DNA of 64,000 bases. Origin: a virus. Under the pieces are notes generated by a model. The model was given only the letters and a program-made list of their open reading frames with translations, made no database searches and was not told the DNA's origin. Positions 429-39,089 of the stretch are shown here, piece by piece. The DNA lies in the IMG/VR virus record IMGVR_UViG_3300021960_000062, positions 1 through 64,000 of that record; one strand, 5' to 3'. The translations under genes and the position numbers were made by a program. How positions within the stretch are numbered: the first letter of the stretch is position 1; every line of letters begins with the position of its first letter.

Positions 429-436
429 TATTTATT
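429..436 (-). promoter_or_regulatory. Late promoter box AATAAATA, minus strand
   Basis: On the minus strand this reads AATAAATA, one base from the T4 late consensus TATAAATA recognised by the gp55 sigma factor. It lies 33 bases upstream of the ATG at 396. The TAA stop codon of the giant gene (434-432) sits inside the box. Inference from motif and position. Confidence 0.6.
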
Positions 437-6400: not shown

Positions 6401-9400
6401 GTGATCCTACAAATAGTGTAGTACCGTCTGATGAAACAGTAACTTTTTCACCAAAAGCATCTCCAGGATTCAGACCTGGTATATTGCTCTTGTTAATTTC
6501 TTGAATGAATTCAAAAACTCTGTTTTCGTTTTTCTTATAGACAAACACAACACCTGTTCTCGGCGTTCCTGTATTTTGTACTTCAATCCATTTGTTGTCA
6601 ATTTCAGGAGCATCATTGATACTAGTTAGACTTGAATCACTATCAAGTTGGTAGTACTTGTTATTTCTTCTAACAACGTCACCCTGAATATAAGTTTCAG
6701 TAGTTCTCCATACGCCTCTATAATTTTCAAAGTTTGATGTATCAGCATAAGGAGCACTTGAAACTAATACAGAACCATCATTAGTCATTGCTATACTTGT
6801 GCCGAACTTATCTCCAATGTCTATATTTTCAATTTGATCATCTGTTGTGCCTTGCTCTAAAGAGGAACCGTCGTCAACATAAGCATATACATTTGGCACA
6901 ATATCTCTGTTAACTGTATTTGTTGCCTCCCAAGAATCGCTTACATCTGGAGTAATTACTCCGTTTCCTGTGAAGAATTCTTTTGCTTTATAGTAAGAAC
7001 TTCCATACCAAACAATACTACCTTGTACATAACTTCTATTAATATCAAAAAGTCCTACAAAATTAGTATCTTGTAATAGCGTCCACTTGATTCCATTGTA
7101 TTGGTATAGATATACTTTACCTCTATCATCCCTACTTCCTGGAGCAGAAATTGCTAGGTAATAACTTTCATCAACAGCACCGAGCGCCGTTCCGAGGATT
7201 CTAATTTGATCACCTACAACATATCCTAAACCTGCTACACTAATTGATGCTTCGTATGCTCCTGCTTTTCTTTCAATATTAAAAATAGCACCTGTTCCAG
7301 GATTTGATACGTCTTCGGGTGTAACATCTAAAAATGTTCCGCTACCAGGTCCCGGAATGCCTTTATAATCAATGCCAATTGCGGCAGTACCTGTATAACT
7401 GAAGAATTGAATTTCACCTTCTCGTTTTGTAGGAAATGGTCCTACATCGCCGTTGTCCGAAACTTGATTAATTCTAATTGTAATATCATTATCTGGTGAA
7501 ACACCTCCTACGGTGTTACCAGGTATAACAATAGTAGTACCTGAAGTGTATGTGATTAAGTTACCCTGATTATCTTTTTCATCCCATGGTACCCAGTTTC
7601 CTGTGCCAAATAATTGATTAGCAGGATCACTAATATATTCTACACTAAATGGAAATCCTTGTACCTGTTCCCAATACTCTGGTGATCTATCAGGAAAAAT
7701 TGTTTCGTATGAACTGTATGCGGTACTGTCAGTTCCGGGTTCGACGCCTGTAACTGTTTTTAATACATTCCAATACTGTGAACTATTAGCAGGATACTTA
7801 ACTACATCGCCTGAGTCATAAGTAGCTGTTGCTGACCAAACACCTTTATCAATGTTTGTATCCTTTATACAGGCATAAAAGAAAGCCCCATATCTAACTA
7901 TACTACGCTGTTTGTAACCATCACCGGGCTGTACTTTAACAGCACCGTCCTGTCTTAATCTAACATTATAAACATCTTTGTTTTTTGTAATTGTAAATAG
8001 AGCTGTTTCACTAACTGGTGTACTTAAAATACCTGTTATATTGTTAAATGTATCTGAACCTAAAATTGTTCCGTTCTCATCTACTGCTCTTACAGTAATT
8101 ACAATGTCATTATTTGAAATTCCAGTTGCTGGTTGACCGCCTACTCTGGTACCTTGAATATAAAGTTGATCTCCAACAGTATATCCGGTTCCGCCGTTAC
8201 GTACTTCAATGTCGTATATAGGTGTTCCTGTAGATCTAGTAACATCAAATGTAGCATTAACACCTTCACTACTTACATCAACTCCGCTAACGTTCTCAAA
8301 TACTTGATCATTTAATCCGCTAGTTCCGTTTGCTTTAACAGAAACAATCCCGCCAGCATTGTCAATTTCATTTACAGTTAAAGTTACGTCACCGCTTGTT
8401 CCTTCAATGCCTTCTAATTTTCCAATTGCTATTGAATTACCAAAATATTCTCCGTTGCCTTGTCTTGGGCTTACCAAACTATTTCTTAGTGTCCATTGTC
8501 CGTTTGAATACTCGTAGATATCAACTCCACCCTGTCTAGCATAACCTTTGTTTGCTAAGAATAAATCTGCTCCAAGTGGATTGGCTTGAGGCAATTCTAC
8601 TGGTTTCCAATCTTGTGACGAAAGATCAATAGTACTTCCGTCGCCAAATACTCTAGTAGTTGCTTCATATAACTTTCCGTTATAAAGCACAATGTCGCCT
8701 GGTTCGTAATTCGCACCAGGGTTGAATTTTTCTTGATAGTTACTTGGGATGTAACTTGCTTTAGGTGATCCAACAACTAACCAACGACCATCTTTACTTG
8801 CTGTAAGTACTTCAGCATACGCTCCAAGATATGAAGTTTGTAATCCGCTTTTAGGTGCTAAGATTTGTAAAGGTATAAGTCCTGTTTCTCCATCGGAGTA
8901 GACTATAACAGCTGAATCTCTAATAACATCGCCGCTGAAAACTGGAGCGCCTGGGTTACCAACAATAGTTTGATTTAATTCTGGTACAAAAGTAACAGCA
9001 CTACCAGTCCCTGTTGGGAAAGCAACACCATATTCTGAAATCTGTGTTACTTGATATTGTTTGTTTCTTTGTACAACTTCCCAGTTATTGTTATCTTCAT
9101 TTTGATCAATAAAGACTTTAGAACCTACTGGTAACTTAGAAAATCCTTTATTAACTAGTTCTTCGTATGATGCTACTCTCACACTTTCAAAATAACTTAC
9201 AAACGCAAAAGAACTTTCGTCAACTTGCGGTGCTTCTCTAAATCCAGAAATAGCAATTACTATTGTAGTAGGAGTGATCTCTGCTACTTGATAGAATCCT
9301 GTTAACCCTAGAATTCCATTTAATCCAACTATCTGACCTATAGTAAAATTATGAACTCTATTTGTATTAAGAACAATTCTATCAACATCAGGTGCCTCTG

Positions 9401-12400
9401 CTGTAACAATTGATACATTACTAACAACATATCTATAAACATTCCAACCGCTGGTTTCGAATGTAGTCCAAATGTTATCGCCCTGTTTAAACTGATCAAT
9501 TGATGTTTCGTTTGTTAGTAGTTCTTGTAGGTTATTTCTTATAAACTGAACATCACTGCTGAATATATACCCTGCTGAATTTTTAGGAACTTCAAAACGT
9601 TTTGTTGGAAATGTAAAACTAGTATTAGCTAATTGATAATCATTATCATTAAGTAAAATATAGTTTTGGAAATCGACTATATCAAATTGTTTTCCGTTAA
9701 GTAAAATAGGTTGCGGATTTAATTTAAAGTCACTTACTTTTAAATCAAACTCTGCTTCGTCAATTTGATCGGTTCCGCCCACAGATCCTAATCTAAATGC
9801 CCATTCTTCATCAAGAACAATTTTATCATCACTAACTGTGCTTACTTTATCAAACACTTTTTTGATTGCGTTGTTAGTGCCTTTTTCTCTACTAAAGCCT
9901 TGATATAATTTAAATTGAGAAACTGTATCTTCAGCAATTTCTTGTAGGTATTCTCTTGCTTGGAAACCCACTGTATGTTTTGCTAATTCTTTTTGATTTG
10001 AATTTATGCCTTCGATACTTGTTTCATAATAATCTTCAATTTGATTAATTCTAAAATCAAAGTTAGCTACCAAGCCCGACTCAGGAAGATTATCTAGTAA
10101 ATCCCAAAAAGTTCTATCAAACTTTTCAGCTCCTCGCTGGAACTTTTTACTCACATAATAGAACTCTTTGTACTGTACAATGTCTCCTATTCTATAATCT
10201 GTAAACTGCTTCCATGGAAGAATATTGACTTTATCAAAAACAAATCCTGGACTTGTATAATTTCCGTCCCAGTCAACAGTTCTAAATCCTTTACTCTTAA
10301 TTCTTTCTTGTCTGTATCCAGCACCTTTATCAAATAGTACATCATTGAAAACTGTTTTATCTGAAAAGATTGTAACATGCTCTTTTTGAACATAATTTAT
10401 TTCAGCAAAATAAATTCCTTCGTTGTCGTTTTCTGGAGCAATTAAAAGTTCATTAATTCCTCTATAAACATCAATGTTAGTTGCTTCGATTTTAGTTCCG
10501 TCTGCTTTAAGAATATTGTAATCATAAAAACTATCAAGAACACTATCTGCTACCGAACCAATATTTTCAAATTTCAGTAATGTTGCGCCTGGACTTACAG
10601 ATAAAATACTTCCTTCGGCCCAATTATGTGTGGTCCAGAATAAAAATTCTTTTACTGATGTTTCCCAGTTCTGTACAACACCTAAATCTTGATTATACTG
10701 ATCAAACACCATTCCTTGACTTTCTAAAAATGACCCGTAGCCTAAGAGAAAATCAACCACCGACTGTATATTATCAAATACAGTATCGTAGTTTAATGTA
10801 AGTCTATCAACTTGATTAAACCGAGTTCTTTTTATTGCTCTTGCTCCACCAACAACAGGTACTTCGTCTATCTGTTTCCAAAGTGCTGGATCAAAGAGAT
10901 CGCCTGATTGGTGGGCTTGAATAGCTCTGAAAAATTGATTTTGTCTTCTAATCAAAGAGCCTTTAATATAAAAAGATTCTGGTGCCCATTCTACGAAAGA
11001 TTCGCTTACGCCGCCAATGTCTAATACAGGATCATTTTGTTGAGCAAAGAAACTATAATAGTTAAAGATAGCATTGAGCTGATCATATCCTGATACTTTA
11101 TAACCGCCTGCTACTTTTTCAACAAGTACACCACTGTATCGTGTAGTGAACAACGGCGAGCTGGTATTGAAGAAAATCTCATAGTTTTCAGACGGAATAA
11201 AAATTCCTGTTTGTTTACTTTGCGGATTTTTACTATCAAGTAGATATTGCTGTTGAGACTTATCAACAAATCCTTTCATTCTAGTGCTTAATTGTAAATC
11301 AAAATTACTGTATATTTCTAAAACATCTTGCTTTGTTCTAGCATTTGATTTCAGATAGTTTACAACATATGATAATAAGCCTTCTGGTCGAGAATTACTA
11401 TTCAACGATTCTACAATATCAGTAACCGTTAAAAATGTGTTAGTAGTTTTACTAACAAATTGTCCTACTTTATTTTTTTGAAAAATATTTCTATCTAAAT
11501 TTAAACTAATTGTTTCAAACGGTGTTAGTAAACATGCCGCTATTAATTGAGCATAAGAATAAACACTGCTTCTGCGCCATGCTGATTCAACCGGTGATAT
11601 ATCACCAAAAGTAAAATCATCTTGATAGTTTGTAGAGTAGTCAACTATGATGTTGGCTTCAAGCGGGGAAATTAAATTTCCATCAGCATCAACAGGTAAA
11701 AGTTGTAGCAAATATGGTCTAGTATATCTTTTATGCTTACCTTGTCTTTCGCCTTGTCTAATAATACCATCTCTGAGATCTTCCCATAAAATTAAATTAT
11801 TTGATGTATACGGAGCTGTTCCGTATTCACTATCCCACCAAGTTGGCTTGATTGTAAACCCTAGCATTTCCCATGGAGTTCTGTGTGGTGTTTGTGTGTC
11901 AAACAAATATTGATACACACCTCTCCAATGTTTAGGTAATTGTTCCTGTCTTAAAATATCTAAGTTTTTATTATATGTCCATGTAAACTGGTTATCTTGA
12001 TCATAATATGAGTTTTCATAAATGTCAATATTTTTGACCAACGGCCATCTTAAGAATTCTAATTCTAAGATATCGTCAACTTGTTTTTTAGTAAATGTAC
12101 CAGTTTTATCCCAGCCACTAAACAAGTTATCAATATCTAAAATTTCAGGATTATATTTTTGTTTAATATTGTTATAAATTCTTTTTTCAAATTCTAATAA
12201 TAGTAAATCTCTAAAATCATCATAAGCAACAGTGATACTACCGTCATGCCCTCTAATTATTTTCTGAGGTGAAGCAAAGGTATCATCTACATACATCTCA
12301 GGAACATAAGTTTTTGTTAAACCAAGACTTGCCGGTGTTTCAGGAATGTAATTGTATGATGTAGAATAAAATTCTTTTATTTCTAGTAAGTCATTTTCAT

Positions 12401-15251
12401 TGAGATCTCTAATAACTCTTACAAAACTAAACTCACTATCAAACACATAATCAATTCCGTGTATCAATTGTACATTATTAAGATACAAATATACTGCTTT
12501 TGTTGACGGTGTAGTTAAATCAAACTTTTCTGACAATGAAAATGTTTTAATACCTGTATCTTCAACTGTATACTTTGAAACTTTGTTTGCTCCACTACCG
12601 ATCATATCGCTATTAACAAACGGACTTGAATCAGGTTTCGCATTGCTTATTTTAGATACAATTTGATCAAGGAAACTAATTACATCTTCACCACCAAAAG
12701 GTAGTGTAGTAGACAGTTTTATTAAATTACTTTTATAATTTTCATATTCTCTGGCCGCATATCTTATTGATTTAATAATGTTTACATTTTTATCGCATAA
12801 TAGAGGTAAAGAACTTGATGCTACTGAGGTATATTTTACAAATCTCTGTCCTTTATTTTGGTAGTTTGAAATATCTCTAAGATTACTTGTTCCGGGAAAT
12901 ATACCAACAAAATCATTTGAATAATTAACCATTGATCGCAAATGATCTGTTGCTTGTCCTAATGTAAATGTTTTTAATTCTTGGTTTAATGGATTTCTTT
13001 CTAAACTTTTAGGAAATTCATAAAATCCTAAATTAGGTTCATCATTTGAAAATACCTTAAGAGTTACTGTATCGCCTTCAGTAAATTTAGTATTATCAAA
13101 TTTAAAAGTTCTTTTGCCTTCAACAGTAGAAACTATTGTATAAGAATCTCTAATAAAGTTTCCATTATTATAAAAGTACAAATTAGCATCTACTGAGCTA
13201 ATCCAATCTATATTAGAAAAAATAACTTCAGAAGTTTCTTCAGATAAAGTATAAGTTTGAATTATTCCCTGATCAAATACCGGATCGCTTGGAATATACA
13301 AATTATGAAAACTTACGTTGTCTAGTGTTTCGGTTGTTTTAATATAACCTGAGTTAATTTTCTTTGATTTGTTTTCAGCACTAACTTGATAGGTAAAACT
13401 ATCTACATCCCAGTCTGAATTAAATTCTATATCACCACTGTTGTTTAAATTCTGATACGCAATAGAAAAACCTAATTCTTTATCAACAGGCCCTGAGCCA
13501 GGTTTATAAGATAATAAGTTACTTCCAGCAAAACTTGAAGTTTCATATTTTGTATTATCAGTAAAACTTACTTCGTCGTCATCAAATATATCAAATTTAG
13601 GAGACTGATTTACAGAATCTTTTGTTTGACTCCTAATCCAATTTTCACCATCGAAGTGATACATCAAACCGGCATTATTTTTACCAAATTTAATAATTAC
13701 ACATTCGCCCTTAGATGTATTAGAATCATCTGCTTCAACTAAGGCAATTTGTTTATTGTCAGCAGTATTGTTTGCTTGAATAACAATTTTCTTTACAACA
13801 AAAATTTTATTTTTAACTAGCGGATCATTGTCTGCTGTAAAAATAATTCTTGCTCCGTCAAAAACGTCAACATTATCAATATTATAACCTGCTGTTCCTT
13901 CGATAGTACTGAAAACATCAGTAGTAAAGTCGTCAATAAAATCAACACTTTGTTTAGCTATCGATCCATGATTTATCAGTTGGATGTTAGAACTAAACTC
14001 AATAATAGGGCGTTTAGCTCTTGACTGTTCGTTAATTTTAGACGCTACATTATTAATACTAGCACTGTAATCTATAACATCTCTATGGAACCATTTATTA
14101 TAACGACTCCATGGATTCCGATCTTTGCTTGATCTGTTAATTGTAATATAGTCTTTGTTAGAAGGAAAACTTACAGCATCATCAAAAGGAAGTTCGTCCC
14201 AACCTCCATCGTCAAATAAAACGTCTACATCGTCATTTTTTACAGGTGGTAAATCTAGTTCTTGAAAATTAATTAATCTAATCGATGTACTAACACCGTC
14301 AACTAACCAGTCGCCTTGAGCATACTTTTCTGGAGTAACATTACCAGTAAAGTTTATCTTTAAACCGTTACTAAACTTTACATTATTAGCACTTGTATAG
14401 TTTAGTTTTCCAATGATCTCTGCTTCTACATCAATACTTGTATTTTCATCAACAGAAGCTATTCTAAACATGCCAACCCTATCAATATTATTTCCGCTCT
14501 GATAATATAATAAGTCAGGACTGTTATTTGGAACAGTAAATGAAACTGTGCCAACTTCTATTCCATTATTAGTAACACCGGTATTATAATTTGCTAGATC
14601 TCCTTCAGTGGGGTTTCTTCTAATATAAAAAGGATCACCAGGAGTGTTTACATTGAAAATATATGTTTGACCTCTATATAAAAGTAAACTTGGATTAGGT
14701 GTAAGGCCATCTGGATAAAACAAAAACTCGTCATCACTTTGACTACGAACTCTATATTCAGATATAACATCTTGTGCCTGTCCAGAAATACTAATTGTAT
14801 CTGGTCCTTGAGGAAGCCAATAATATTCTCTGTAATTAATAAACTTGTCCCAGTCAATGGGAGGATTCCAACTATAACTTCTTATAGATGTTGTAAGATC
14901 GTCTCTTTCGTTGTTATTGTTAAAAAACTTTAATTGGCTTTTAACATCAATATAATCGTAAAAACTTTTAACAGATAAATTTTCACTATCTCTAACTACT
15001 ACACCGGGTTCTAATTGATAAGCATGTCGCAATGACTCTTCTTTATCAACATAGATATCTTTACTATTATAAGTTCTTCCATAGTTACGTCCAATGTAAC
15101 CCGAAATCCTATCAAGTGTTCCTGGTTGTACTAACGGATCCAGTGTAGCACTTAAAAACTTTCTGTTAGTAGAAGATTTAAAAATCTCCGGTAATAGCTG
15201 ATAAGTTTCTCTAACAGGTAATTCACTCTGTTTGAATATTTTTTTATCCAT
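432..15251 (-). CDS. Giant 4,939-residue baseplate-region structural protein
   Basis: An uninterrupted reading frame of 14.8 kb directly after gp6; its ATG shares one base with the gp6 stop (TAATG), which suggests coupled translation. The N-terminal 200 residues are non-repetitive and Trp/Tyr-rich. From about residue 1600 onward there are several segments of the kind Y..GDIV.Y.G..Y.A, resembling small carbohydrate-binding modules. Residues about 2150-3090 carry at least five FG-GAP-like propeller units (for example FGTSIAMTNDGSVLVSSAP). A Trp/Tyr-rich stretch around residues 3700-3850 precedes Gly-Tyr modules (GQGYTSVPTIELVGG). The last 1,000 residues hold repeated beta-modules of the type VFVN..L..G.DY.......I. 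In T4 this position is held by gp7 (1,032 residues), so it may be a greatly enlarged counterpart or a gp7-fibre fusion; I cannot show homology to gp7. Virion structural nature is likely, exact role unknown. Confidence 0.75.
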   Translation of the reverse strand: MDKKIFKQSELPVRETYQLLPEIFKSSTNRKFLSATLDPLVQPGTLDRISGYIGRNYGRTYNSKDIYVDKEESLRHAYQLEPGVVVRDSENLSVKSFYDYIDVKSQLKFFNNNNERDDLTTSIRSYSWNPPIDWDKFINYREYYWLPQGPDTISISGQAQDVISEYRVRSQSDDEFLFYPDGLTPNPSLLLYRGQTYIFNVNTPGDPFYIRRNPTEGDLANYNTGVTNNGIEVGTVSFTVPNNSPDLLYYQSGNNIDRVGMFRIASVDENTSIDVEAEIIGKLNYTSANNVKFSNGLKINFTGNVTPEKYAQGDWLVDGVSTSIRLINFQELDLPPVKNDDVDVLFDDGGWDELPFDDAVSFPSNKDYITINRSSKDRNPWSRYNKWFHRDVIDYSASINNVASKINEQSRAKRPIIEFSSNIQLINHGSIAKQSVDFIDDFTTDVFSTIEGTAGYNIDNVDVFDGARIIFTADNDPLVKNKIFVVKKIVIQANNTADNKQIALVEADDSNTSKGECVIIKFGKNNAGLMYHFDGENWIRSQTKDSVNQSPKFDIFDDDEVSFTDNTKYETSSFAGSNLLSYKPGSGPVDKELGFSIAYQNLNNSGDIEFNSDWDVDSFTYQVSAENKSKKINSGYIKTTETLDNVSFHNLYIPSDPVFDQGIIQTYTLSEETSEVIFSNIDWISSVDANLYFYNNGNFIRDSYTIVSTVEGKRTFKFDNTKFTEGDTVTLKVFSNDEPNLGFYEFPKSLERNPLNQELKTFTLGQATDHLRSMVNYSNDFVGIFPGTSNLRDISNYQNKGQRFVKYTSVASSSLPLLCDKNVNIIKSIRYAAREYENYKSNLIKLSTTLPFGGEDVISFLDQIVSKISNAKPDSSPFVNSDMIGSGANKVSKYTVEDTGIKTFSLSEKFDLTTPSTKAVYLYLNNVQLIHGIDYVFDSEFSFVRVIRDLNENDLLEIKEFYSTSYNYIPETPASLGLTKTYVPEMYVDDTFASPQKIIRGHDGSITVAYDDFRDLLLLEFEKRIYNNIKQKYNPEILDIDNLFSGWDKTGTFTKKQVDDILELEFLRWPLVKNIDIYENSYYDQDNQFTWTYNKNLDILRQEQLPKHWRGVYQYLFDTQTPHRTPWEMLGFTIKPTWWDSEYGTAPYTSNNLILWEDLRDGIIRQGERQGKHKRYTRPYLLQLLPVDADGNLISPLEANIIVDYSTNYQDDFTFGDISPVESAWRRSSVYSYAQLIAACLLTPFETISLNLDRNIFQKNKVGQFVSKTTNTFLTVTDIVESLNSNSRPEGLLSYVVNYLKSNARTKQDVLEIYSNFDLQLSTRMKGFVDKSQQQYLLDSKNPQSKQTGIFIPSENYEIFFNTSSPLFTTRYSGVLVEKVAGGYKVSGYDQLNAIFNYYSFFAQQNDPVLDIGGVSESFVEWAPESFYIKGSLIRRQNQFFRAIQAHQSGDLFDPALWKQIDEVPVVGGARAIKRTRFNQVDRLTLNYDTVFDNIQSVVDFLLGYGSFLESQGMVFDQYNQDLGVVQNWETSVKEFLFWTTHNWAEGSILSVSPGATLLKFENIGSVADSVLDSFYDYNILKADGTKIEATNIDVYRGINELLIAPENDNEGIYFAEINYVQKEHVTIFSDKTVFNDVLFDKGAGYRQERIKSKGFRTVDWDGNYTSPGFVFDKVNILPWKQFTDYRIGDIVQYKEFYYVSKKFQRGAEKFDRTFWDLLDNLPESGLVANFDFRINQIEDYYETSIEGINSNQKELAKHTVGFQAREYLQEIAEDTVSQFKLYQGFSREKGTNNAIKKVFDKVSTVSDDKIVLDEEWAFRLGSVGGTDQIDEAEFDLKVSDFKLNPQPILLNGKQFDIVDFQNYILLNDNDYQLANTSFTFPTKRFEVPKNSAGYIFSSDVQFIRNNLQELLTNETSIDQFKQGDNIWTTFETSGWNVYRYVVSNVSIVTAEAPDVDRIVLNTNRVHNFTIGQIVGLNGILGLTGFYQVAEITPTTIVIAISGFREAPQVDESSFAFVSYFESVRVASYEELVNKGFSKLPVGSKVFIDQNEDNNNWEVVQRNKQYQVTQISEYGVAFPTGTGSAVTFVPELNQTIVGNPGAPVFSGDVIRDSAVIVYSDGETGLIPLQILAPKSGLQTSYLGAYAEVLTASKDGRWLVVGSPKASYIPSNYQEKFNPGANYEPGDIVLYNGKLYEATTRVFGDGSTIDLSSQDWKPVELPQANPLGADLFLANKGYARQGGVDIYEYSNGQWTLRNSLVSPRQGNGEYFGNSIAIGKLEGIEGTSGDVTLTVNEIDNAGGIVSVKANGTSGLNDQVFENVSGVDVSSEGVNATFDVTRSTGTPIYDIEVRNGGTGYTVGDQLYIQGTRVGGQPATGISNNDIVITVRAVDENGTILGSDTFNNITGILSTPVSETALFTITKNKDVYNVRLRQDGAVKVQPGDGYKQRSIVRYGAFFYACIKDTNIDKGVWSATATYDSGDVVKYPANSSQYWNVLKTVTGVEPGTDSTAYSSYETIFPDRSPEYWEQVQGFPFSVEYISDPANQLFGTGNWVPWDEKDNQGNLITYTSGTTIVIPGNTVGGVSPDNDITIRINQVSDNGDVGPFPTKREGEIQFFSYTGTAAIGIDYKGIPGPGSGTFLDVTPEDVSNPGTGAIFNIERKAGAYEASISVAGLGYVVGDQIRILGTALGAVDESYYLAISAPGSRDDRGKVYLYQYNGIKWTLLQDTNFVGLFDINRSYVQGSIVWYGSSYYKAKEFFTGNGVITPDVSDSWEATNTVNRDIVPNVYAYVDDGSSLEQGTTDDQIENIDIGDKFGTSIAMTNDGSVLVSSAPYADTSNFENYRGVWRTTETYIQGDVVRRNNKYYQLDSDSSLTSINDAPEIDNKWIEVQNTGTPRTGVVFVYKKNENRVFEFIQEINKSNIPGLNPGDAFGEKVTVSSDGTTLFVGSPNSDKNEKDQGSVFIFGWESNKFVFTQKIQSNTNDYEERFGSNLSISPDGKTLAVSAEGAETFEITTFDKDETRFDRLTTSFADPIGTTGKVFVFNEYGGKWVLGEIFEDNLSFNEDFGRSLATSNNTIIVGSPSYLSDDPAFTEVVIGRIQKFEKLDGVKPWTVIRNQTNQVDISKIRTLAAYQKDTYTKIADIDVVDTFKGKLLGIVEQNIDFKTPFDPAVYTESNNEELTTKDESQHWTEKQVGRIWWDTSKVKYLVYEQGDVVFRNGNWNSFAQGSSIDAYQWIESTLKPSQWAELANGDDPTITGNPLYPDDTVYSVKRKVDPISGNVSKTLYYYWVKNKQTTETNSSKTLASSQVADYIVNPQNAGVPFAFVIDKDKITLSNLKTLLDTDEFSVNVQFYKNGTDINLIHNEYVLTTEESTKNPNEDLERKWIDSLVGSDVLGNQIPDPNLSDKNKYGIESRPRQTIFVNRNKAVEQTITFINDALYTLPLADEIDYGYLNLIDEKPSTVKRLYDLSIDTEQELRFYAKPTIKDAVLSANIINGHVNTIDIVDPGFGYKSAPLITIRGEGEGATAEATIDSFGRISSVTVTNQGKKYLTANPIVRSFSILVERDSTVNGFWSIYSWSVREQEFYRVATQEYDTTKYWEYIDWWAPGFSEESRIIQTLPGLYAEQEVDLEDNQLLRLDDYGSGGWAVLQRVSQGATIKGKFKLVGRQQGTIRIINKFYNTEIESTGYDKTQTYDSNRYDTSAAKEFRNILNAMKYDIFVDELAGYWNKLFFVNIHYVFSEQLYIDWAFKTSFLNAIHNVGYLQQKLNFRSDNLAAYQAYIEEVKPYRTKIRNYTSRYQNLENTNTTISDFDLPPVYNTTTNTINPVKLGDDEIDLQPWNTWFNNYKFEVTDIILTEQGSTYSTAPQVIFTGGGGSGAKAKAYISNRKVTKIVLLDSGQGYTSVPTIELVGGVGTQTQFSAKAVARIGKSKARLFHNTIKFDRFSKTPTFKSYSANERFIETESFAGTGRLTTFELKYPSTLDKSSITVFVDNQQQFASDYTITLFTKLVNGLTVLKGRLTLLTPASEGSNITIRYEKNDEILDSLNRIDKYYKPTDGMLGIDKDVPDNGGEITTDYSQLVTGMDYGGVIVQGATFSVGAGWDALPWFTEGWDTAESNSKDFYIAADESTHSFVLPEIPESGKVYNIYIRRKGDTNTTRLDDPNFGTAQQTNESAIMPSFVGDGSTNVIDIPIPDEGIYINDGDVLIFRPIESDGSIDIQSANYLDAEVSGGTLLGSNPYSTATGILPEEIVIDGEKFISPEQVPAPEENIPGQVLESLSIRVFHTDRFGAPAVLSRIYTADGTQQTYKIDQHILQNANLLVYVNKVLKEVQVDYTVDYKNNEIRFISPPNNLDIIEVFSLGVGGVELLDVREFTGDGQTRYFLTGAPFSSTGKVFATIDGEVTSVGFVNSNGVVNESDNTLIEFGIPPVNNSLIQIVVLSEESGQADSIVRINQERINLTAGTREYPIQFFESLASSDTSNVIVEYNGSLLKTIDSTYVVYDGNDVITLNNDPEIGSGTVIPSKIKVFVNRELLRDAVDYNFNGADNEVRLLKSLNKGDIVLIENAKDANYEIVDGKIKFSPLYTIQAGDYIDVIWFTRYTEVDIVRDVYKGNQNSYKLQRSVRNISNVWVYKNGVRLTAGIDFYIGGANNSVYLKDSTLETDIIETLTYSNKIYNTPLSYEIHRDVLNRNSYHRYQLVNISLAQDLYYYDTVIKLNDASGLPNPSSGQPGIVSINGEKIEYLNKSGNELQNIRRGLYGTSIRTLHESGTLVVDTGYTETLPYNDNQEKFDFVSDGSSLLVGPLEFVPVKGGEFNTSTSFTSDIPQGYGRCDDIEVFVGGRRLNKNAFKLYDSTVASISPEGDVQYDAEFAVDGINEYVRLTSAVAPGTRITIIRRTGKTWYDRGETTVSDGTSLSEATSAIARFLQNSSTELPE

Positions 15252-29491: not shown

Positions 29492-30718
29492 ATGAAACTG
29501 AATCAATTAGAAAACATCGATAACCTAGATGAAGCACCACAAGGGTTTTTAAAAAGAACAGCACTTAGAGCTAGATCAGCTTTTGGTGGAGATGGAGGTG
29601 CTTCTGCTAAAGGACAACTTCAAACAGGTGAAATTGCTAATATACTTAAAAAAGAATACATGCAGTTTGTAGGTCGTACTGCTGCAGAATATGGTAATAA
29701 ACCTACTACACAAACACTACTCGCTTTCCTAAACAAAAAAGGCATCGATACTAGAGAAATTGCTGGTATGATTGACAAAGAGCTACAGGCTCTTGCGCCA
29801 CAAAAACAAAACCAACCACAAGCAGAACCCGAAAAAGTTGAACCAGAAGTAGGTTCAGATTCTGAACTAGACAAACTTAAACCACAAAGCCCTACAGACG
29901 ATAACAATCCATTAGCTATGAATAAAAAAGACGATGTGAATATCGATGTTCCTGTAACTATGAAAAGACAAAAGACAGGTGGTAGACAAAAAGGTGGTTT
30001 AGTTAATACACCAAGTGCTATCTATCAGCGTAATCGTAGAAAAAAAACCGGCGATCAATTAGAATTATTATCAATGTACAGTGAAGAGTCACAGCGTTAT
30101 AGAAAAAACTTTGAACGCATTGATTGGACACTAAAAGAAGACGCAGAATATTTTGGCGCACTTAAATTTATGGGCGTGTTTGAAGCAGTTATTCCAACAA
30201 ACGTACTAGACAAAGTATTAAGCCGAATATCAGTAAACATTGACAAGGATGATTTAGGCGGTTTAAAACCATCACCTGAACCAATAGCACAAAAACAAGA
30301 TGAGCCCGACAGTGATGACAACACTGCTCAAACTGGGACGGATGGATCACAAGAGAAAAAAAGCGGAGGCTTTTTAAAAGGCATTGGTACAGCAATTGGC
30401 GGTATTGCTAGTAAAGCCAAAGACGGTGTTCAATCAGGAATGGGTGATAACCCAGAAGATGCAAAAGCATCAAAGATTTTTGATCCTGATGAAAAAGAAA
30501 AAACAGTTGGTAGCTTAAACTATCAGAATATTGCTAAAGAATTTCCTGGTATCGATTCTACAGCACTTAGAAGAAGCATGTCTAAAAGTTTACAAGGAAA
30601 GCAGTTGACTAGAGTAGAACATGAAACTATGTCTGCGGCAATGACCCAACTTCTTAAGAAAGATCCCCAGCAAACAGTAAAAGTAATGAATTTGTTTAAG
30701 CAAACAAAAGCGGCTTAG
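29492..30718 (+). CDS. Late protein of unknown function, partly disordered
   Basis: A 408-residue protein not recognised by family. It has a folded-looking N-terminal part (about 30-95, LQTGEIANILKKEYMQFVG), a Gln/Glu/Pro-rich linker (about 100-150), a basic stretch (MKRQKTGGRQKGG), a helical middle (about 185-240), a second acidic linker, a Gly/Ala-rich segment GGFLKGIGTAIGGIASKAK that could insert in or line a membrane or core, and a helical C-terminus. The exact late promoter box upstream makes it a late, probably virion or assembly protein. It ends tail-to-tail with the gp26 extension, overlapping by four bases, with no terminator visible. Confidence 0.75.
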   Translation: MKLNQLENIDNLDEAPQGFLKRTALRARSAFGGDGGASAKGQLQTGEIANILKKEYMQFVGRTAAEYGNKPTTQTLLAFLNKKGIDTREIAGMIDKELQALAPQKQNQPQAEPEKVEPEVGSDSELDKLKPQSPTDDNNPLAMNKKDDVNIDVPVTMKRQKTGGRQKGGLVNTPSAIYQRNRRKKTGDQLELLSMYSEESQRYRKNFERIDWTLKEDAEYFGALKFMGVFEAVIPTNVLDKVLSRISVNIDKDDLGGLKPSPEPIAQKQDEPDSDDNTAQTGTDGSQEKKSGGFLKGIGTAIGGIASKAKDGVQSGMGDNPEDAKASKIFDPDEKEKTVGSLNYQNIAKEFPGIDSTALRRSMSKSLQGKQLTRVEHETMSAAMTQLLKKDPQQTVKVMNLFKQTKAA

Positions 30719-30984
30719 AAAAAAGGTAGACCACTTTCTTTTGTGGTTTCCATATTTTGTTTAACAATACTTACAATTATTTCACGTTCTTCGAAGCTAA
30801 GATTCATAGCTTCAGCATATGATAGCCCACCACGCATATACCACACAGAGCGCATTGCTTCTGATTTAATATCTTTTGCCTGGTCGTCCATGGCTTTCGT
30901 TTCGGCAAGAATGTCGTTAATAGTTAACTTCGAAAGCCTTGTCCGAAAAAATCCGCTTGATCCAAGGTAAGTTTTACATCCCAT
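30715..30984 (-). CDS. Frameshift extension of gp26 (tail-assembly chaperone T-part; gp51-like)
   Basis: An 89-codon open frame in the -1 frame relative to gp26 and overlapping its 3' end by 61 bases. The informative part starts at the frameshift site (30951) and contributes 76 residues with YMRGGLSYAEAMNLSFEERE and a C-terminal ETTKESGLPFF. The nominal ATG at 30984 has no binding site and lies in gp26 coding sequence, and the internal ATG near 30890 also lacks one, so I infer expression as a gp26 fusion (398 residues in total) through -1 frameshifting. The place next to gp26 corresponds to gp51 in T4, a hub assembly factor, and the YMRGG segment may be related, though I cannot prove it. Likely role: chaperone for the tape-measure proteins encoded next door. 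Confidence 0.65.
   Translation of the reverse strand: MGCKTYLGSSGFFRTRLSKLTINDILAETKAMDDQAKDIKSEAMRSVWYMRGGLSYAEAMNLSFEEREIIVSIVKQNMETTKESGLPFF
30892..30951 (-). promoter_or_regulatory. Programmed -1 ribosomal frameshift site (slippery heptamer plus stem-loop)
   Basis: On the minus strand the gp26 codons GAT TTT TTC contain the heptamer T TTT TTC (30951-30945), which allows tandem -1 slippage to TTT TTT. After a six-base spacer comes an eight-base-pair perfect stem, GGCTTTCG (30938-30931) with CGAAAGCC (30899-30892). Its 31-base loop contains the gp26 stop codon and a small inner hairpin GTTAA-CTA-TTAAC. Spacer and layout match known stimulators of -1 frameshifting. Confidence 0.75.
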
Positions 30985-31987: not shown

Positions 31988-34585
31988 ATGGCAAAAAATG
32001 TAGAATTTTATGGTGGACAATTAGACGGAGCAGTACTTCAAAACGCCGCTTCTGAAGAAACACTTAAACAATTGGTAAAAGCCATCGGTGGTGGCACCGG
32101 CGGTGGCGGAGGTTCTGGTATATTAGGCAGAACACCAATGGGTATGGTTGCTGGAGGCGTTGTTGGTCTTTTAACTGGTGCTGTTAAAGGTACGGTTAAC
32201 CAAATTGGTAATGTAACAGGTGCCGCTGGTACATTTGCTGGAATGTTGATCAAAGGTGAAGGCCGTATAAGTTCTTATACCAAAGTTCTTAACAATCAAG
32301 TTATATCACAGCTACCTATTTTTGGTAAAGTACTAGGCACAGTAGGCGGAGCAGTATCCGGTTCTATTGAAGCATTTGAACAATGGAACAAATCTTTAAT
32401 GTCCTTGACTTCTGTTGGGGCAACTTTTAATAACAGTATACTTGAAATGATGAGTGCTTCTACTTTGACATACATGTCACTAGATGACTTTTCAAAAATG
32501 GTTGCTCAAAATAGTACAAAATTAAGAGCTTTTGGAGAAACTATAACACTTGGTACTCATGCTTTTGCTAAAGTATCAGATGCCGCACTTAATGGAAGTG
32601 GCCAAGCAAGAAGCAGTTTAATAAGTTTAGGTTATACTATTCCTCAGATTAATCAGTCGTTGATTAACTTTATGGATCTAAACTATAGAGGATCAAGGAT
32701 TAACGACTTTACAGCAAAAGGTGTTGCTGATTCGTTTGTTGGTTATCAATCACAATTACATACTCTTACTACATTAACTGGAAAAAGAGTAGATCAAATA
32801 GAAGCCGAACTTGCTAGTGCTAGTACCGATGCCGCTTATCAGTTACAGATAGCAAAATATAGTAACGACAGTAGAACAGAAATGAGTCTACAATTAGCTA
32901 ACTTTACACAAATTCACGGCGAGGCAGGAGCAAAATTATTTAGAGCAAGAACATTAGGGCTAATGGCTCAGGGAGAAGATATTGCTACACTGCTGATGAT
33001 GTATCCTAATCTAGTAAGTCAAATGGACAATGCTATTTACATGGCAAAAAATAATGCTCAAAAAGGAGCGTTATTAGATGAAAGAATGATTGATACTAGA
33101 ACAGAGCTAATTTACAATGCTTCAAAAGGTTTGAAAGAGTTTGATATACTATTAAAGGCAGCCGCTTCAGGCGATAAAGATCTACAAAGTCTTCTAGGAC
33201 TAAATGCTGAAACTGCAGCTTTGGTTGCTAAACTAGGTGTAGGTACAACTATAAAAAATAAAGAACAACTTAGATCTGCGATAAAAAGAAATTATCTAGA
33301 AATGAAAGAAAAAGAAACGTTTACAGAAAGCATGAGAGCATTTCAACAGGCTATCATAGAGTTTAAACGTGGATTTTTTATGGCTTTGATAGGTACAAGA
33401 GAATCACCAGGTCCACTGTGGGAATTTTCCATAGCTATGGAAGGCGAAGAACTGCCTAAAAAAATTAGAGAACTAGGTGTTTCAATGGGTCAGTTCGCTT
33501 ATGACGCAGTTCCAAAAATGATAATGTTCTTTGCTAGATTTGGAACAAAAGAAGGGCGAGATTTATATTGGTTAGAACTGAAAAAAGTTTTTGATAAAGC
33601 AAAAGCTATTTTAGCTTTTACATTTACTAATGCGATGTCTAAGGAAAAATTAGACCCAGGGATATTAGATAAAATGTTGACTCATGTCGATCAGAAATAT
33701 GATCCTCAAATTAAAAAGGCACGAGATCTAGCTGATTATGCTACTGTAAACATGATGGGAGGTGATAACGTACCAAAGTCCAACCAATTGTTTAAAAACT
33801 TCTCAGGCGGAGACAGTCAAAAAGAAAGAGCCTTGATGGTCTATACTGCGTTTATTAATCAAGGTGCGCCACCTAGTCTAGCCAAAGTTCTTACTGCTGA
33901 AGTGTTTAGAGAAAATAGTCTTAGATCTAATTTAATGCTAGGTCAGCATACAGATCCTAAAAACCAAGAAACTAACATCGGGATGTTCAGCTATCAAAAA
34001 GATAGAGCAAAAGCATTTAAAGAGTTTATGGGAGATGATCTAAACTCCCCTCTATCTCAGGCACACATTAACAAACAAGCACAATTTGCCATGATGGAAA
34101 TGCTTCAAATGCTTGGTCCGGACTTCTTGAAAACAGCAAGTGAAATGTCACAGGCTGAACTTCATCAAGTAATTGGCAACGAGTATATAAAATGGGCTAT
34201 AAACAATCCTAAATACCGTGACAAAGGAATGCTAAATCTAGCAACAGGTCATAGAATCATTGATGAAGCGATTAAAGAGTATTCTCTAATACCAGAAGGA
34301 CGCAGAAGCGGTAATCTAGGAACAATGAACACACTGCTTAATAACTTTGGTGGTGGAACTGAAATTGAAACACACGGAAATGAAGTTATTCAAACTGCTA
34401 GTGAATTTGTAAATGACATGACAATGTCTGCTAGTGAATCTGGAGCGGCTGTGTCTGAATTAAATCAAAATTTAATGACATTGATTAGTTTATCAAAAGA
34501 ACGAATTGAAGTAGCAAACAGACTTTTAGATAAATCTGCTAGAAAATCAAATAACTTGTTTGCTATAGCAGGAGCAGGAGCATAA
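31988..34585 (+). CDS. Tape-measure-like protein 1 with lysozyme-like C-terminal region
   Basis: An 865-residue protein. The N-terminus (EETLKQLVKAIGG) is followed by a Gly-rich stretch, then long hydrophobic and Ala/Gly helical segments (about 50-130, MGMVAGGVVGLLTGAVKG) and a helical body, as in tape-measure proteins that set tail length. Residues about 610-750 differ: MVYTAFINQGAPPSLAKVL, then AEVFRENSLRS and NIGMFSYQKDRAKAF. These resemble phage tail lysozyme domains, in which a Glu in a helix after the alanine-rich start is catalytic; E in FRENS is the candidate. The neighbouring protein shares the first half, not this region. The ATG has only a weak binding site (TTGGA). No other tape-measure candidate is in the window. 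Confidence 0.65.
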   Translation: MAKNVEFYGGQLDGAVLQNAASEETLKQLVKAIGGGTGGGGGSGILGRTPMGMVAGGVVGLLTGAVKGTVNQIGNVTGAAGTFAGMLIKGEGRISSYTKVLNNQVISQLPIFGKVLGTVGGAVSGSIEAFEQWNKSLMSLTSVGATFNNSILEMMSASTLTYMSLDDFSKMVAQNSTKLRAFGETITLGTHAFAKVSDAALNGSGQARSSLISLGYTIPQINQSLINFMDLNYRGSRINDFTAKGVADSFVGYQSQLHTLTTLTGKRVDQIEAELASASTDAAYQLQIAKYSNDSRTEMSLQLANFTQIHGEAGAKLFRARTLGLMAQGEDIATLLMMYPNLVSQMDNAIYMAKNNAQKGALLDERMIDTRTELIYNASKGLKEFDILLKAAASGDKDLQSLLGLNAETAALVAKLGVGTTIKNKEQLRSAIKRNYLEMKEKETFTESMRAFQQAIIEFKRGFFMALIGTRESPGPLWEFSIAMEGEELPKKIRELGVSMGQFAYDAVPKMIMFFARFGTKEGRDLYWLELKKVFDKAKAILAFTFTNAMSKEKLDPGILDKMLTHVDQKYDPQIKKARDLADYATVNMMGGDNVPKSNQLFKNFSGGDSQKERALMVYTAFINQGAPPSLAKVLTAEVFRENSLRSNLMLGQHTDPKNQETNIGMFSYQKDRAKAFKEFMGDDLNSPLSQAHINKQAQFAMMEMLQMLGPDFLKTASEMSQAELHQVIGNEYIKWAINNPKYRDKGMLNLATGHRIIDEAIKEYSLIPEGRRSGNLGTMNTLLNNFGGGTEIETHGNEVIQTASEFVNDMTMSASESGAAVSELNQNLMTLISLSKERIEVANRLLDKSARKSNNLFAIAGAGA

Positions 34586-34586
34586 C

Positions 34587-37364
34587 ATGGCTGACTCAGT
34601 AAAGTTTATACATGATGCTCTAGGACAAAGCGAAATTCGCAACATGGCCACTGAAGCAACTTTAAAAGAGTTGCTAGAAGTAATTGGTGGTCCACAAGGT
34701 TCAAACAGATCAAGATCAAACAGTTTATATTCTTTAAAAAATGTTTTTACTGGATTTAAAAATAAAGCTCAACAACTAGAACGCGGAATGAAAAATGTTG
34801 TAAGACCATTTAGTGGTTTTATTTCATTACTTGCTAAAAATGAAACGGCAATGAGTGCTTTTGGTACTCATTTAAATGAATCAGTAATTAAAAAATTACC
34901 TTGGGTTGGAGGAATCATAGGTAGTTTAGGCGATGTTGTTATTTCAGGTGTGGGTGTTTTAGAAGGATGGGAAAGACAATCTAAAAAATTAGTTCCAGCA
35001 GGAGCTACATTTAATCAAAGTATTATTGAAATGGTTCAAGTAGCAAGTCAAGCAAGAATGGGTTTAGATGAGCTACAAAATGTAATTGGTGCTAATATTA
35101 CTGAACTAAATGCGCTTGGAGCTACAACAAATTCAGGTATTCGAAAGTTTGGAGAGTTTGCTGATTTTATTTCTACTGGTACTGAATCAGCAAGAACATC
35201 ATTGCTTAAGATGGGCTATAATACAGAAGAAATTAATTCTGCAGCCATTAATTTTCTATACCTAACCCAAAGAGGTGCTAATAGAACACTTGAAATTAAT
35301 AAAACTACTCAAAATGATTTTCTAGTATACACAAAAACTGTAGATACATTCCAACGATTAATGGGAGACAGTTTACAAAGCAAAAACACTGGCGCTCAAA
35401 AAATTCTAAGAAATGCTATTGTAATGTTAGAAATGAACAAATTAAGCCCACAACAAGCTGCAAAAATGGCCATGGCGGCACAGATGGCGGCACTAACATT
35501 TGATGAAGGAATCGCAGACGCTTTTAACGCAACACTATTTGGCCTTGCTGTTACTAACGATGCTGGTTTTGCTTTTGAAAAAATGTTACCGGGTGTTAGA
35601 GATGCTCTTGATGCTTTGATGGCGGGTGCTAGAGATCCAGATGTGGGCATAGATGAATATAGAAATATGACCTTTGATTTATTTGGTAATATTATAGCAG
35701 GTGCTGACAATCAATTAAAAACACTGGATGGTTTAATTAGAGGTATGTCAGTTATGCCGGGAATGCATGCTAACGAATACGAAGCACTGCGAAGAGTATC
35801 TGAAATAGTTATTCAAAAAAATCTATCAGGCAAAACACCTAAAGAACTATCAGATATGCTAAAAGACGCATATAAAAATTTAGAAAACACTGAAACTATC
35901 ACAGAAGCAATACGTGCGATGTTAGAAGCAGTAACAAATTTTAAAATGGGTTTTGTAAAAGGATTTACAGATCCTAACAGTGGATTAATATCAGTTTCAA
36001 AACAATTAGATGCTCAAGAACTTGGAAAGAAGTTTGCAAAACTAAGCACGATGTTAATTGAATTTTCAAAAACAGCATGGCAAGATCTTCAAGACTTTTG
36101 GAGTTATTTAGGTACTGGCGAAGGAAGAGCGCATATGATTGAGTACTTCACATCTTGGGGGAAATTTGTTGCTGGACGAGCATATCTTTACGCAAAATCA
36201 GCCGCTTCAACAATACTTGGATTTGCCGTTAGGAGTTTACCGGGCGGCGACACGACTATAGATTTCATAAAACAACTCGACGCTGGTATGAAAAGAACAA
36301 TGGGGTTCGGCCTAGGGTTTTTATACTATTCTGATACTGAAGAAGATATGGAGTATGCTCAAAATATGTTTAATTTTGAAACTGGTACAGCAAAGCCTAC
36401 ACCAACAGTAGATCCATCAACTGCTTCTAACTATGGTGGCGGCAGCGCAGATATTAATAAAGCTCCTTTTTCTTCGACAATGCTTACAATGAACAAAACA
36501 CAAGCTGAACAAATTGGTATGAAAGCTGGTACTTATTATTATGATAAAAATTTAAAAGTATGGAGATCAAGGGCCAACTACGGACTGGCTAACGCCGAAC
36601 CCGATCCTTTTGGCGGTATTCACCCCAGTTCGATTGCCACCGCTAAAAATAATCCGGATGTTAGTTTGGCAAATTCAGCTCAGTTAACAAATCTATGGCA
36701 AAAAACTGCTACAGCGTCAGGAGACAATAGAAGAGGCCTAGTTACCGCTATAAGCGGTAAGTCAGCATTTATAAATCAAAAACACGTTGGTTTTTATGGA
36801 GAGATATTAAGATGGATGAACAAAAATGGGCTTACTGTTTCGGAGCTAATAGGCCAAAATGATTCACCTGGATACAAAGGCGGCCATGTTTTAAGAATTG
36901 CTACAAAAGACCAAGGTTCGGAATGGTTTGCCTCTCTGCATGAGGACCAGCGGAAACAATTGATACTTGTTTTGGCAAATAATGGTTACATTGATCCATC
37001 TGATTTATACACGGAAGACAAGCCTCAAACAAATGCTATGCTAGATGCTTTAATGAGAGGAGAACTTAGTGCTGTAAACAATGTTAAAAATTTGGATTCA
37101 GTAAGTGGTTATAGAGCAGGAACATTAAATTCAACCCTAGAAGCATATGGCAGAAGTGTAGTGGACTTTGGAGCAAAATCTAGAATAAAAGTATCTGGTG
37201 ATAGAGCAATTATGACAGAAGAACAGTATAACACTATCAAAGACAGGGCTCGCCAGATTCCTGCTGAAGATATGATTAAATCAGTAAATAGTACTGTTCA
37301 GGAAATGATAAGTTTAACAAGATACGAAATAGGTATTGAAAAGAAAATGTTAAGCGTTGCTTAA
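34587..37364 (+). CDS. Tape-measure-like protein 2 (paralogue of the preceding gene)
   Basis: A 925-residue protein that begins one base after the previous stop, with AGGAGCAGGAG as binding site. The first 300 residues align with the preceding protein: EATLKELLEVIGG, SVIKKLPWVGGIIGSLGDV, AGATFNQSIIEMVQVASQA and TSLLKMGYNTEEINSAAINF each have a counterpart there, so the pair arose by tandem duplication. The C-terminal half is different: a Thr/Pro linker near 600 and a domain at about 700-830 (FYGEILRWMNKNGLTVSEL, VLRIATKDQGSEWFASLHE) that I do not recognise. It lies directly upstream of the portal gene with which it is probably co-transcribed. It may be a second tail-lumen protein delivered with the DNA. 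Confidence 0.6.
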   Translation: MADSVKFIHDALGQSEIRNMATEATLKELLEVIGGPQGSNRSRSNSLYSLKNVFTGFKNKAQQLERGMKNVVRPFSGFISLLAKNETAMSAFGTHLNESVIKKLPWVGGIIGSLGDVVISGVGVLEGWERQSKKLVPAGATFNQSIIEMVQVASQARMGLDELQNVIGANITELNALGATTNSGIRKFGEFADFISTGTESARTSLLKMGYNTEEINSAAINFLYLTQRGANRTLEINKTTQNDFLVYTKTVDTFQRLMGDSLQSKNTGAQKILRNAIVMLEMNKLSPQQAAKMAMAAQMAALTFDEGIADAFNATLFGLAVTNDAGFAFEKMLPGVRDALDALMAGARDPDVGIDEYRNMTFDLFGNIIAGADNQLKTLDGLIRGMSVMPGMHANEYEALRRVSEIVIQKNLSGKTPKELSDMLKDAYKNLENTETITEAIRAMLEAVTNFKMGFVKGFTDPNSGLISVSKQLDAQELGKKFAKLSTMLIEFSKTAWQDLQDFWSYLGTGEGRAHMIEYFTSWGKFVAGRAYLYAKSAASTILGFAVRSLPGGDTTIDFIKQLDAGMKRTMGFGLGFLYYSDTEEDMEYAQNMFNFETGTAKPTPTVDPSTASNYGGGSADINKAPFSSTMLTMNKTQAEQIGMKAGTYYYDKNLKVWRSRANYGLANAEPDPFGGIHPSSIATAKNNPDVSLANSAQLTNLWQKTATASGDNRRGLVTAISGKSAFINQKHVGFYGEILRWMNKNGLTVSELIGQNDSPGYKGGHVLRIATKDQGSEWFASLHEDQRKQLILVLANNGYIDPSDLYTEDKPQTNAMLDALMRGELSAVNNVKNLDSVSGYRAGTLNSTLEAYGRSVVDFGAKSRIKVSGDRAIMTEEQYNTIKDRARQIPAEDMIKSVNSTVQEMISLTRYEIGIEKKMLSVA

Positions 37365-37376
37365 TTGGAGAAGATT

Positions 37377-39089
37377 TTGAGTTGGAAAAAATATTTTACA
37401 CCTGTACCAACAGGTAATTCGTCAGGAAGTTACAGCCCGATAGGAAATGGCAGTCAGCCAGGCCCGGCACGTAGCAATTATTCATCATTCTTACCAGATG
37501 TTTATGCTGGTACACCAAATCGTGTTGAACGATACATGCAGTATAACACGATGGATATGGACAGTGAGGTAAATGCCGCACTAGACATTTTAGCAGAATT
37601 TTGTACACAACAGAACAAAGAAAACAATACTACTTTCCAAATTTACTTCAAAAACGATCCAACTCAAACTGAAGTAAAACTATTAAAAGAAGGTCTTCAA
37701 AAGTGGTACAGATCAAATAAATTTGAAACACGTATGTTTAGAGTAGTAAGAAACTGCTTTAAATATGGCGACGAGTTTTTCCTAAGAGATCCCGAGACTG
37801 GAAAACTATTCCATATCGATCCATCAAAAGTTACAAAGATTATTGTAAATGAATCTGAAGGTAAAAAGCCTGAACAGTATATTATCAAAGATTTAAATTT
37901 CAATTTTAGAAATCTTGTAGCAACTTCTATTCATCCTGATAATCACAACTCACCTGCCGGTACTGGCAGTTATGTCAGTGGTGGTGCGCTTGGAAGAGGC
38001 ATGGTTGGTTCTTCTCCACAGTCTACGGGATCTCGCTTTTCTACAGAACAAAATGAAACAGCAGTTGATGCTGAACACGTTGTTCATTTAAGTTTATCAG
38101 AAGGATTAGACAATAACTATCCTTTTGGTAATTCCTTATTAGAGTCAGTTTTTAAAGTTTACAAACAAAAAGAATTGCTTGAAGATGCTATTATTATCTA
38201 TCGTGTACAAAGAGCACCTGAGCGTAGAGTGTTTTATGTTGACGTTGGTAATATGCCAGCACACATGGCTATGAGCTTTGTTGAACGTGTTAAAAACGAA
38301 ATTAATCAAAGACGTATTCCAAGTAATACAGGCGGTGGAGCAAATGTAATTGACGCTAGTTATAATCCACTTAGTATTTCAGAGGACTATTTCTTTCCAC
38401 AAACTGCTGAAGGTAGAGGATCTAAAGTCGACACATTACCGGGTGGTACTAACCTAGGTGAAATTGATGACCTACGTTACTTTACTAATAAACTTTTCCG
38501 TGCTTTGAGAATTCCAAGTTCTTATTTGCCAACTATGCCAGACGACAGTCCAGCACAGTTTAATGACGGTAAAGTTGGTACAGCGTACATACAAGAGTTA
38601 CGTTTTAATGAGTATTGTAAAAGACTACAAAAACTTATTATCACAGAACTTGACCACGAATTTAAACGTTATCTTATCAAACAAGGTGTTAACATTGACA
38701 ATAGTTTGTTTGAAATTACGTTTAATGCTCCTCAAAACTTTGCTTCTTATAGACAAGCAGAGCTAGATAATAACAGAGTACAAACATTTGCCGCACTACA
38801 AGAAGTTCCATACATGAGCAAACGCTTTGCTCTAAAACGTTTCTTAGGTCTTTCACAAGAAGAAGTTACTGAAAACGAATTGATGTGGAAAGAAGAAAAC
38901 GGTACTAAGATTGCTCAAGAAGCTGAAGCATCAGCACAGATGAGAAGTGTTGGTGTAAGTCCAAACGATATATCAGCAGAAGCAGGCGCACAAGAAACCG
39001 AAGCACCTGATGATATGGCGGCCGCGGCCGCAGGTGATACACCTGATGTATCAGCAACCGATACACCTGATACAGGCGCAGGAGTATAA
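37377..39089 (+). CDS. 20: Portal vertex protein gp20
   Basis: A portal protein of 570 residues when begun at the TTG at 37377 (MSWKKYFTPVP); I chose it over the TTG at 37365 because GGAG (37367-37370) stands six bases before it. T4 gp20 is 524 residues. Family segments include YNTMDMDSEVNAALDILAEF, RNCFKYGDEFFLRDPETG, VVHLSLSEGLDNNYPFGNSL, IYRVQRAPERRVFYVDVGNM and FRALRIPSSYLPTM. It forms the dodecameric ring for DNA entry and prohead initiation. The last 50 residues are Ala/Asp/Thr-rich and disordered. Its stop codon lies inside a late promoter box. Confidence 0.95.
   Translation: MSWKKYFTPVPTGNSSGSYSPIGNGSQPGPARSNYSSFLPDVYAGTPNRVERYMQYNTMDMDSEVNAALDILAEFCTQQNKENNTTFQIYFKNDPTQTEVKLLKEGLQKWYRSNKFETRMFRVVRNCFKYGDEFFLRDPETGKLFHIDPSKVTKIIVNESEGKKPEQYIIKDLNFNFRNLVATSIHPDNHNSPAGTGSYVSGGALGRGMVGSSPQSTGSRFSTEQNETAVDAEHVVHLSLSEGLDNNYPFGNSLLESVFKVYKQKELLEDAIIIYRVQRAPERRVFYVDVGNMPAHMAMSFVERVKNEINQRRIPSNTGGGANVIDASYNPLSISEDYFFPQTAEGRGSKVDTLPGGTNLGEIDDLRYFTNKLFRALRIPSSYLPTMPDDSPAQFNDGKVGTAYIQELRFNEYCKRLQKLIITELDHEFKRYLIKQGVNIDNSLFEITFNAPQNFASYRQAELDNNRVQTFAALQEVPYMSKRFALKRFLGLSQEEVTENELMWKEENGTKIAQEAEASAQMRSVGVSPNDISAEAGAQETEAPDDMAAAAAGDTPDVSATDTPDTGAGV

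Follow-up and report, generated by a model that had tools for sequence, protein, structure and literature searches.

The 3' end of the gp26 gene in the window, by which we mean the whole 64-kb stretch analysed here out of a 67-kb viral record of a marine T4-like phage, carries a cassette that very probably directs a programmed -1 frameshift and so provides a tail-assembly chaperone in two forms. The case is read from the sequences themselves: the cassette, its conservation among relatives, the selection acting on the -1 frame extension and the homology of both parts to gp26 and gp51 of T4. The nearest annotated relatives of the window are the jumbo phages Phosso and Atu_ph07, followed by the RaK2, 121Q, GAP32 and PA5oct types, and the window also holds a T4-type gp23 capsid gene, gp46/gp47-like nuclease subunits and a lysozyme-type hub protein.

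The cassette at the end of gp26

The elements of the cassette and the neighbouring genes are listed in Table 1. On the minus strand gp26 ends in GCG GAT TTT TTC GGA CAA GGC TTT CGA AGT TAA, and a -1 shift at the heptamer would create a Phe-Phe-Arg junction, with 76 codons after Phe-Phe and the end of the frame at 30715. The two arms of the stem (GGCTTTCG/CGAAAGCC) pair at eight of eight positions. An 8-bp stem at a spacer of 5 to 8 nt arose in only 0.17% of dinucleotide shuffles, and RNA folding of the cassette gave -18.5 kcal/mol (z = -3.1). Of the window's 40 ORFs that reach 100 aa or more, gp26 alone has a terminal heptamer that opens a long -1 frame, the scan having covered canonical heptamers within about 15 codons of the stop followed by at least 60 open -1 codons. 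The heptamer, the 6-nt spacer, the perfect 8-bp stem, the stop codon in its loop and the 76-codon -1 frame, all given in a preliminary description of this DNA, agree with the sequence, which almost certainly encodes a programmed -1 ribosomal frameshift at the end of gp26.

Table 1. Features of the gp26 region and of the facing genes in the window
Feature	Position	Strand	Basis or remark
gp26 homologue, short form, 328 aa	30924..31910	-	Pfam PF12322 T4_baseplate, PHROG 150
Slippery heptamer T_TTT_TTC, in gp26 frame	30945..30951	-	Sequence; kept in relatives
Spacer GGACAA, 6 nt	30939..30944	-	Sequence; stems of relatives begin 4-8 nt past heptamer
Putative stimulatory stem, 5' arm GGCTTTCG	30931..30938	-	Shuffles and RNA folding; identical stem in L001, L004-L006
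Putative stimulatory stem, 3' arm CGAAAGCC	30892..30899	-	Shuffles and RNA folding
gp26 stop codon TAA, in stem loop	30924..30926	-	Sequence
-1 frame extension, 76 codons (30945-30718) plus stop (30717-30715)	30715..30945	-	398-aa fusion
Facing gene, 865 aa, tape-measure candidate	31988..34585	+	Position; no informative Pfam match
Facing gene, 925 aa, paralogous tape-measure candidate	34587..37364	+	Weak match to RaK2 neighbour
gp20 portal	37365..39089	+	PF07230 E=8e-110; T4-like virion module

The preliminary description had also treated the extension as having no ribosome-binding site of its own. The -1 frame does contain an ATG at 30984, which lies upstream of the heptamer and would open an 89-aa ORF, but no clear ribosome-binding site was seen before it and the codon is not conserved, being missing from the nearest relatives (L001-L006).

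Heptamer, stem and extension in related phages

The heptamer T_TTT_TTC was located in all 42 of the closest IMG/VR loci, one to six codons from the gp26 stop, and a similar open -1 frame follows in each of them (cut short at one locus by the end of the contig). It is present in ten of ten sampled annotated jumbo-phage genomes (Atu_ph07, Phosso, RaK2, 121Q, GAP32, CBB, BF, Munch, PAC2 and XacN1), with T_TTT_TTT as the XacN1 version, and in 85 of 87 further loci from Kyanoviridae cyanophages, Aeh1, the KVP40-type phage VH7D and related phages, the phiN3 version again being T_TTT_TTT; Rhizobium IC12 and Sf-FS3 carry the heptamer as well. The residue that precedes Phe-Phe varies among 45 dereplicated loci (D, N, S, H, T, R or A), and the third base of its codon is T in every one. 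Since the residue varies and the base is constant, the constraint acts on the nucleotide and not on the protein.

The stem was evaluated against a null in which the protein of the -1 frame was kept and synonymous codons were drawn, with the start of the stem placed 4 to 8 nt past the heptamer. It exceeded this null both in a jumbo-type set (27 dereplicated loci, combined p 3e-21) and in a set of 18 others (combined p 8e-15), although the p-values take the loci as independent and they are not fully so. Sliding the test region 20 nt downstream lowered the mean score to roughly half in the jumbo-type loci (11 vs 21) and to about two thirds in the 18 others (12.7 vs 18.8). Stem partners depend on the lineage, and the 3' arm of the window lies 21 nt nearer than in the L013-type loci. 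Covariation was seen in 14 L013-type jumbo loci, where 89.6% of cells are paired vs 23-60% in slid positions, with 15 double changes, and in 29 cyanophage loci, where the corresponding values are 85.1% and 22-48%, with 8 double changes. The same synonymous-codon null gave no significant stem in five jumbo loci (L040, L047, L048, L050 and L051), and the stem is absent from a few enterobacterial jumbo loci. The heptamer and the stem, which the preliminary description proposed to compare across T4-like relatives, are thus both kept across divergent lineages, with one heptamer-less clade described below.

Beyond the gp26 stop, dN/dS of the extension is about 0.05-0.13 among the window, L001 and L004-L006, a constraint about equal to that on gp26 or stronger. 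These values indicate that the extension is a genuine segment of protein under strong purifying selection. It is predicted to be mostly helical (mean pLDDT 85 in the predicted structure) and has a conserved core, W-Y-M-R-G-G-[LS]...[ML]..ER. A Pfam search with the extension family returned chance-level matches only, and no similar solved structure was found in the PDB by sequence-profile search or by Foldseek with the gp26 and extension models. The jumbo phages from Atu_ph07 to XacN1 resemble the window in the gene, the heptamer and the position of the extension. However, GenBank records of jumbo phages and of some cyanophages (L044-L053, L061 and L062) treat the extension as a hypothetical protein of its own, begin it late or omit it, so that the long form is mis-split or left out in many of them.

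The Kyanoviridae gp26 with its small 'gp51', and gp26 of the Aeh1/KVP40 type, agree with the window in heptamer, -1 phase, hairpin and homologous extension (PHROG 634). Cyanophage gp26 differs from the window gene in having GAGGG upstream, a shorter extension and often an ATG after the stop. This Shine-Dalgarno-like GAGGG stands about 9 nt upstream of the heptamer at cyanophage gp26 3' ends (L055, L062 and L068-L147); the GAG codon is used in 12 of 14 cyanophage GAGGG cases vs 31% in genes. No such GAGGG precedes the heptamer in the window and none was seen in the jumbo phages. The dnaX cassette of E. coli consists of a heptamer and a downstream hairpin with a Shine-Dalgarno-like stimulator, and it is possible that the cyanophage GAGGG is a stimulator of this type. 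The likeness to dnaX lies in the heptamer and the hairpin, to which cyanophage members add the matching stimulator, whereas there is no homology and the product is unrelated.

One clade (100/99), formed by Kuttervirus SH19 and its relatives (Ackermannviridae), Vibrio K369 and Pseudomonas Cygsa01, is without the heptamer. Loss of the heptamer with both frames intact had been named in the preliminary description as evidence against its reading, and it is found in this clade, outside the window's lineage; the frameshift is therefore not universal. In Cygsa01 and K369 a TAATG overlap lies at the junction, which makes reinitiation possible there. Kuttervirus keeps an intact extension, with no start codon close to the junction. 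Neither a canonical slip site nor a strong stem was found in the clade, save one possible stem in K369, and a scan of viral contigs with gp26 of K369 found no relatives. The -1 extension is intact in the heptamer-less loci L064 (1510-2313), L148-L162, L063 and L057.

Relationship to gp26 and gp51 of T4

The short form matches PF12322 T4_baseplate (E=6e-16, 59 bits vs a cut-off of 24.5) and positions 10-232 of the 282 in PHROG 150 'baseplate hub' (E=2e-21). Both gp26 and gp51 of T4 match the same PHROG, at positions 14-235 and 13-280, respectively. The two T4 proteins come from separate genes that diverge, 26 on the minus strand and 51 on the plus strand; gp26 ends in ...KEFFELL and gp51 runs on beyond this same point, and there is no heptamer at the end of T4 gene 26. 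The window and T4 have PHROG 150 in common, and the short form is matched by gp26 and the fusion, across the junction, by gp51; they differ in that the window has a single gene with a frameshift for both products.

Alignment of families with hhalign connected gp26 with gp51 (E=2e-13), the T4 gp51 family with the cyanophage fusions across both junction and extension (E=2e-22), and the jumbo fusions with the cyanophage fusions (E=4e-22). The jumbo extension alone matched the C-terminus of T4 gp51 more weakly (E=7e-5, probability 63%), and T4 gp51 aligned directly with the jumbo fusion gave a weak match (E=0.001, probability 20%); in these profile comparisons the link between the jumbo fusion and T4 gp51 runs via the cyanophages. 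The small cyanophage 'gp51' corresponds to the extension only, belongs to PHROG 634 and matches residues 147-246 of T4 gp51. The alignments indicate that gp26 and gp51 of T4 are paralogues of the window gene, T4 gp26 ending where the slip would occur and gp51 running on through the part that corresponds to the extension.

A phylogenetic tree made sister clades of T4-type gp26 and gp51 (96/88) and put them in one group with the frameshifting Aeh1 and VH7D. The simplest reading of these sequences, within the limits that midpoint rooting and long branches set on the order of events, is that frameshifting came first and that a duplication in the T4 branch replaced the slip. Apart from the branch of T4 itself, the cassette is seen across the T4 superfamily. 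Frameshifting was probably ancestral in that whole superfamily, with the essential 'catalyst' gp51 of T4 being a long gp26 frozen after the duplication and the heptamer-less clade, having given up the canonical slip site, using another route.

A probable two-form chaperone and the genes that face it

As gp26 and gp51 of T4 appear to be paralogues that respectively stop and continue at the slip point, the proposal of the preliminary description that gp26 and its gp51-like extension form a short/long chaperone of the G/GT type is well supported by homology, and it is strengthened by the conservation of heptamer and stem and by the selection on the extension. The chaperone function itself, judged from homology and analogy, can be assigned with good confidence. 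The majority of ribosomes would stop at the gp26 TAA and release the short form of 328 aa, and a minority would slip back one base on T_TTT_TTC, with help from the hairpin that follows the 6-nt spacer, and go on through the 76 extension codons, so producing the 398-aa long form. If the pair acts as lambda G/GT does, the short form may coat the tape-measure protein, the extension of the long form may recruit a tube or hub component, and both forms would depart before the tail is completed. T4 would obtain the same two products from a pair of paralogues, the short one from gene 26 and the long one from gene 51. We infer the slippage and its efficiency, the chaperone action and the partner proteins from the features described above.

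The window pair resembles lambda G/GT and P2 E/E' in being a short/long pair that would arise from a -1 frameshift shortly before the short gene ends, beside tape-measure candidates, and differs in lying on the strand opposite to these candidates; it is likened to them by arrangement and not by sequence comparison. The G/GT mechanism has been described, and G-T frameshifting was considered widespread in long-tailed phages except T4 in a 2016 review (PMC5009743). Because chaperones of different phages share little sequence (PMC5009743), we do not claim membership of the lambda G/GT group by homology. The chaperone genes of T4-like phages were identified by Vladimirov, Gautam & Davidson 2022, as cited in PMC10885494 and PMC12846349; as reported in these citing papers, some T4-like phages dispense with frameshifting and have a short gene plus a longer fusion gene (PMC10885494), and polyT slip sites occur in T4-like chaperone genes (PMC12846349). 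In the GenBank record of phage Stupor, gp26, gp28 and gp51 are named tape measure protein assembly chaperones. In view of this record and of the 2022 publication, as it is cited, the equivalence between gp26/gp51 and the chaperones is already known for T4-like phages, which lessens the surprise. The preliminary description expected the T4 hub factors to gain a clear function; the equivalence is supported, but it is not new. For gp26 and gp51, which have long been called hub proteins of unclear role, the function becomes directly testable. A literature search for frameshifting in gp26/gp51 or in jumbo-phage tail chaperones yielded no relevant paper.

The same observations can be read in other ways. 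The extension might be an independent small gene, a 'gp51' assembly catalyst that ribosomes reach by reinitiation or at a start codon of its own, with the heptamer being incidental. Many cyanophages have an ATG in the -1 frame 5 nt past the gp26 stop, some of them with a gp51 annotation, Cygsa01 and K369 have their TAATG overlaps without a heptamer, and the window has its ATG at 30984. However, this last codon is missing from L001-L006, and for its lack of conservation an own start of the extension was rejected; S-MbCM6, S-SSM4 and Aeh1 keep an intact extension with no start near the junction, and both an invariant heptamer with a covarying stem and the natural fusion of the two parts in T4 gp51 make such a gene very improbable. 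T runs can cause RNA polymerase slippage, which would likewise need T6 only, and transcriptional slippage on this run could then fuse the frames in place of ribosomal frameshifting. Yet a run of six T is short for this process, and the stem at a fixed distance of 4-8 nt, the X_XXY_YYZ phase in gp26 and the terminal C found nearly everywhere fit tandem tRNA slippage, so that we regard a transcriptional origin as extremely unlikely.

Both forms might also be structural parts of the hub or baseplate and not tape-measure chaperones, as would follow from the name 'baseplate hub' given to the family in databases and from the older genetics that put gp26 in the hub (summarised in PMC3004832). The same paper, however, tables gp26 and gp51 as hub assembly chaperones and gp51 is absent from the final particle (PMC3004832); tail-assembly chaperones are usually recognised by a short/long pair that arises through frameshifting (PMC5009743), and the names in the Stupor record point the same way. 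A structural role is thus unlikely, and we prefer the two-form tail-assembly chaperone.

As the preliminary description had it, gp26 faces tape-measure-like genes on the opposite strand; the orientation is correct, and their identity as tape measures is plausible. The two facing proteins (865 and 925 aa) are 27% identical over about 530 aa, and their genes are adjacent and lie beside the portal gene. The 925-aa protein matches weakly (E=0.001) the product of the equivalent gene of RaK2, which is annotated in GenBank as 'similar to a tape measure', and neither facing gene matched a tape-measure profile. The other jumbo relatives examined have one protein of 720-832 aa in the tape-measure-like position vs two in the window. 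Elsewhere in the window, a single open reading frame of 4939 codons (432-15251, minus strand) is unusually long for a phage gene.
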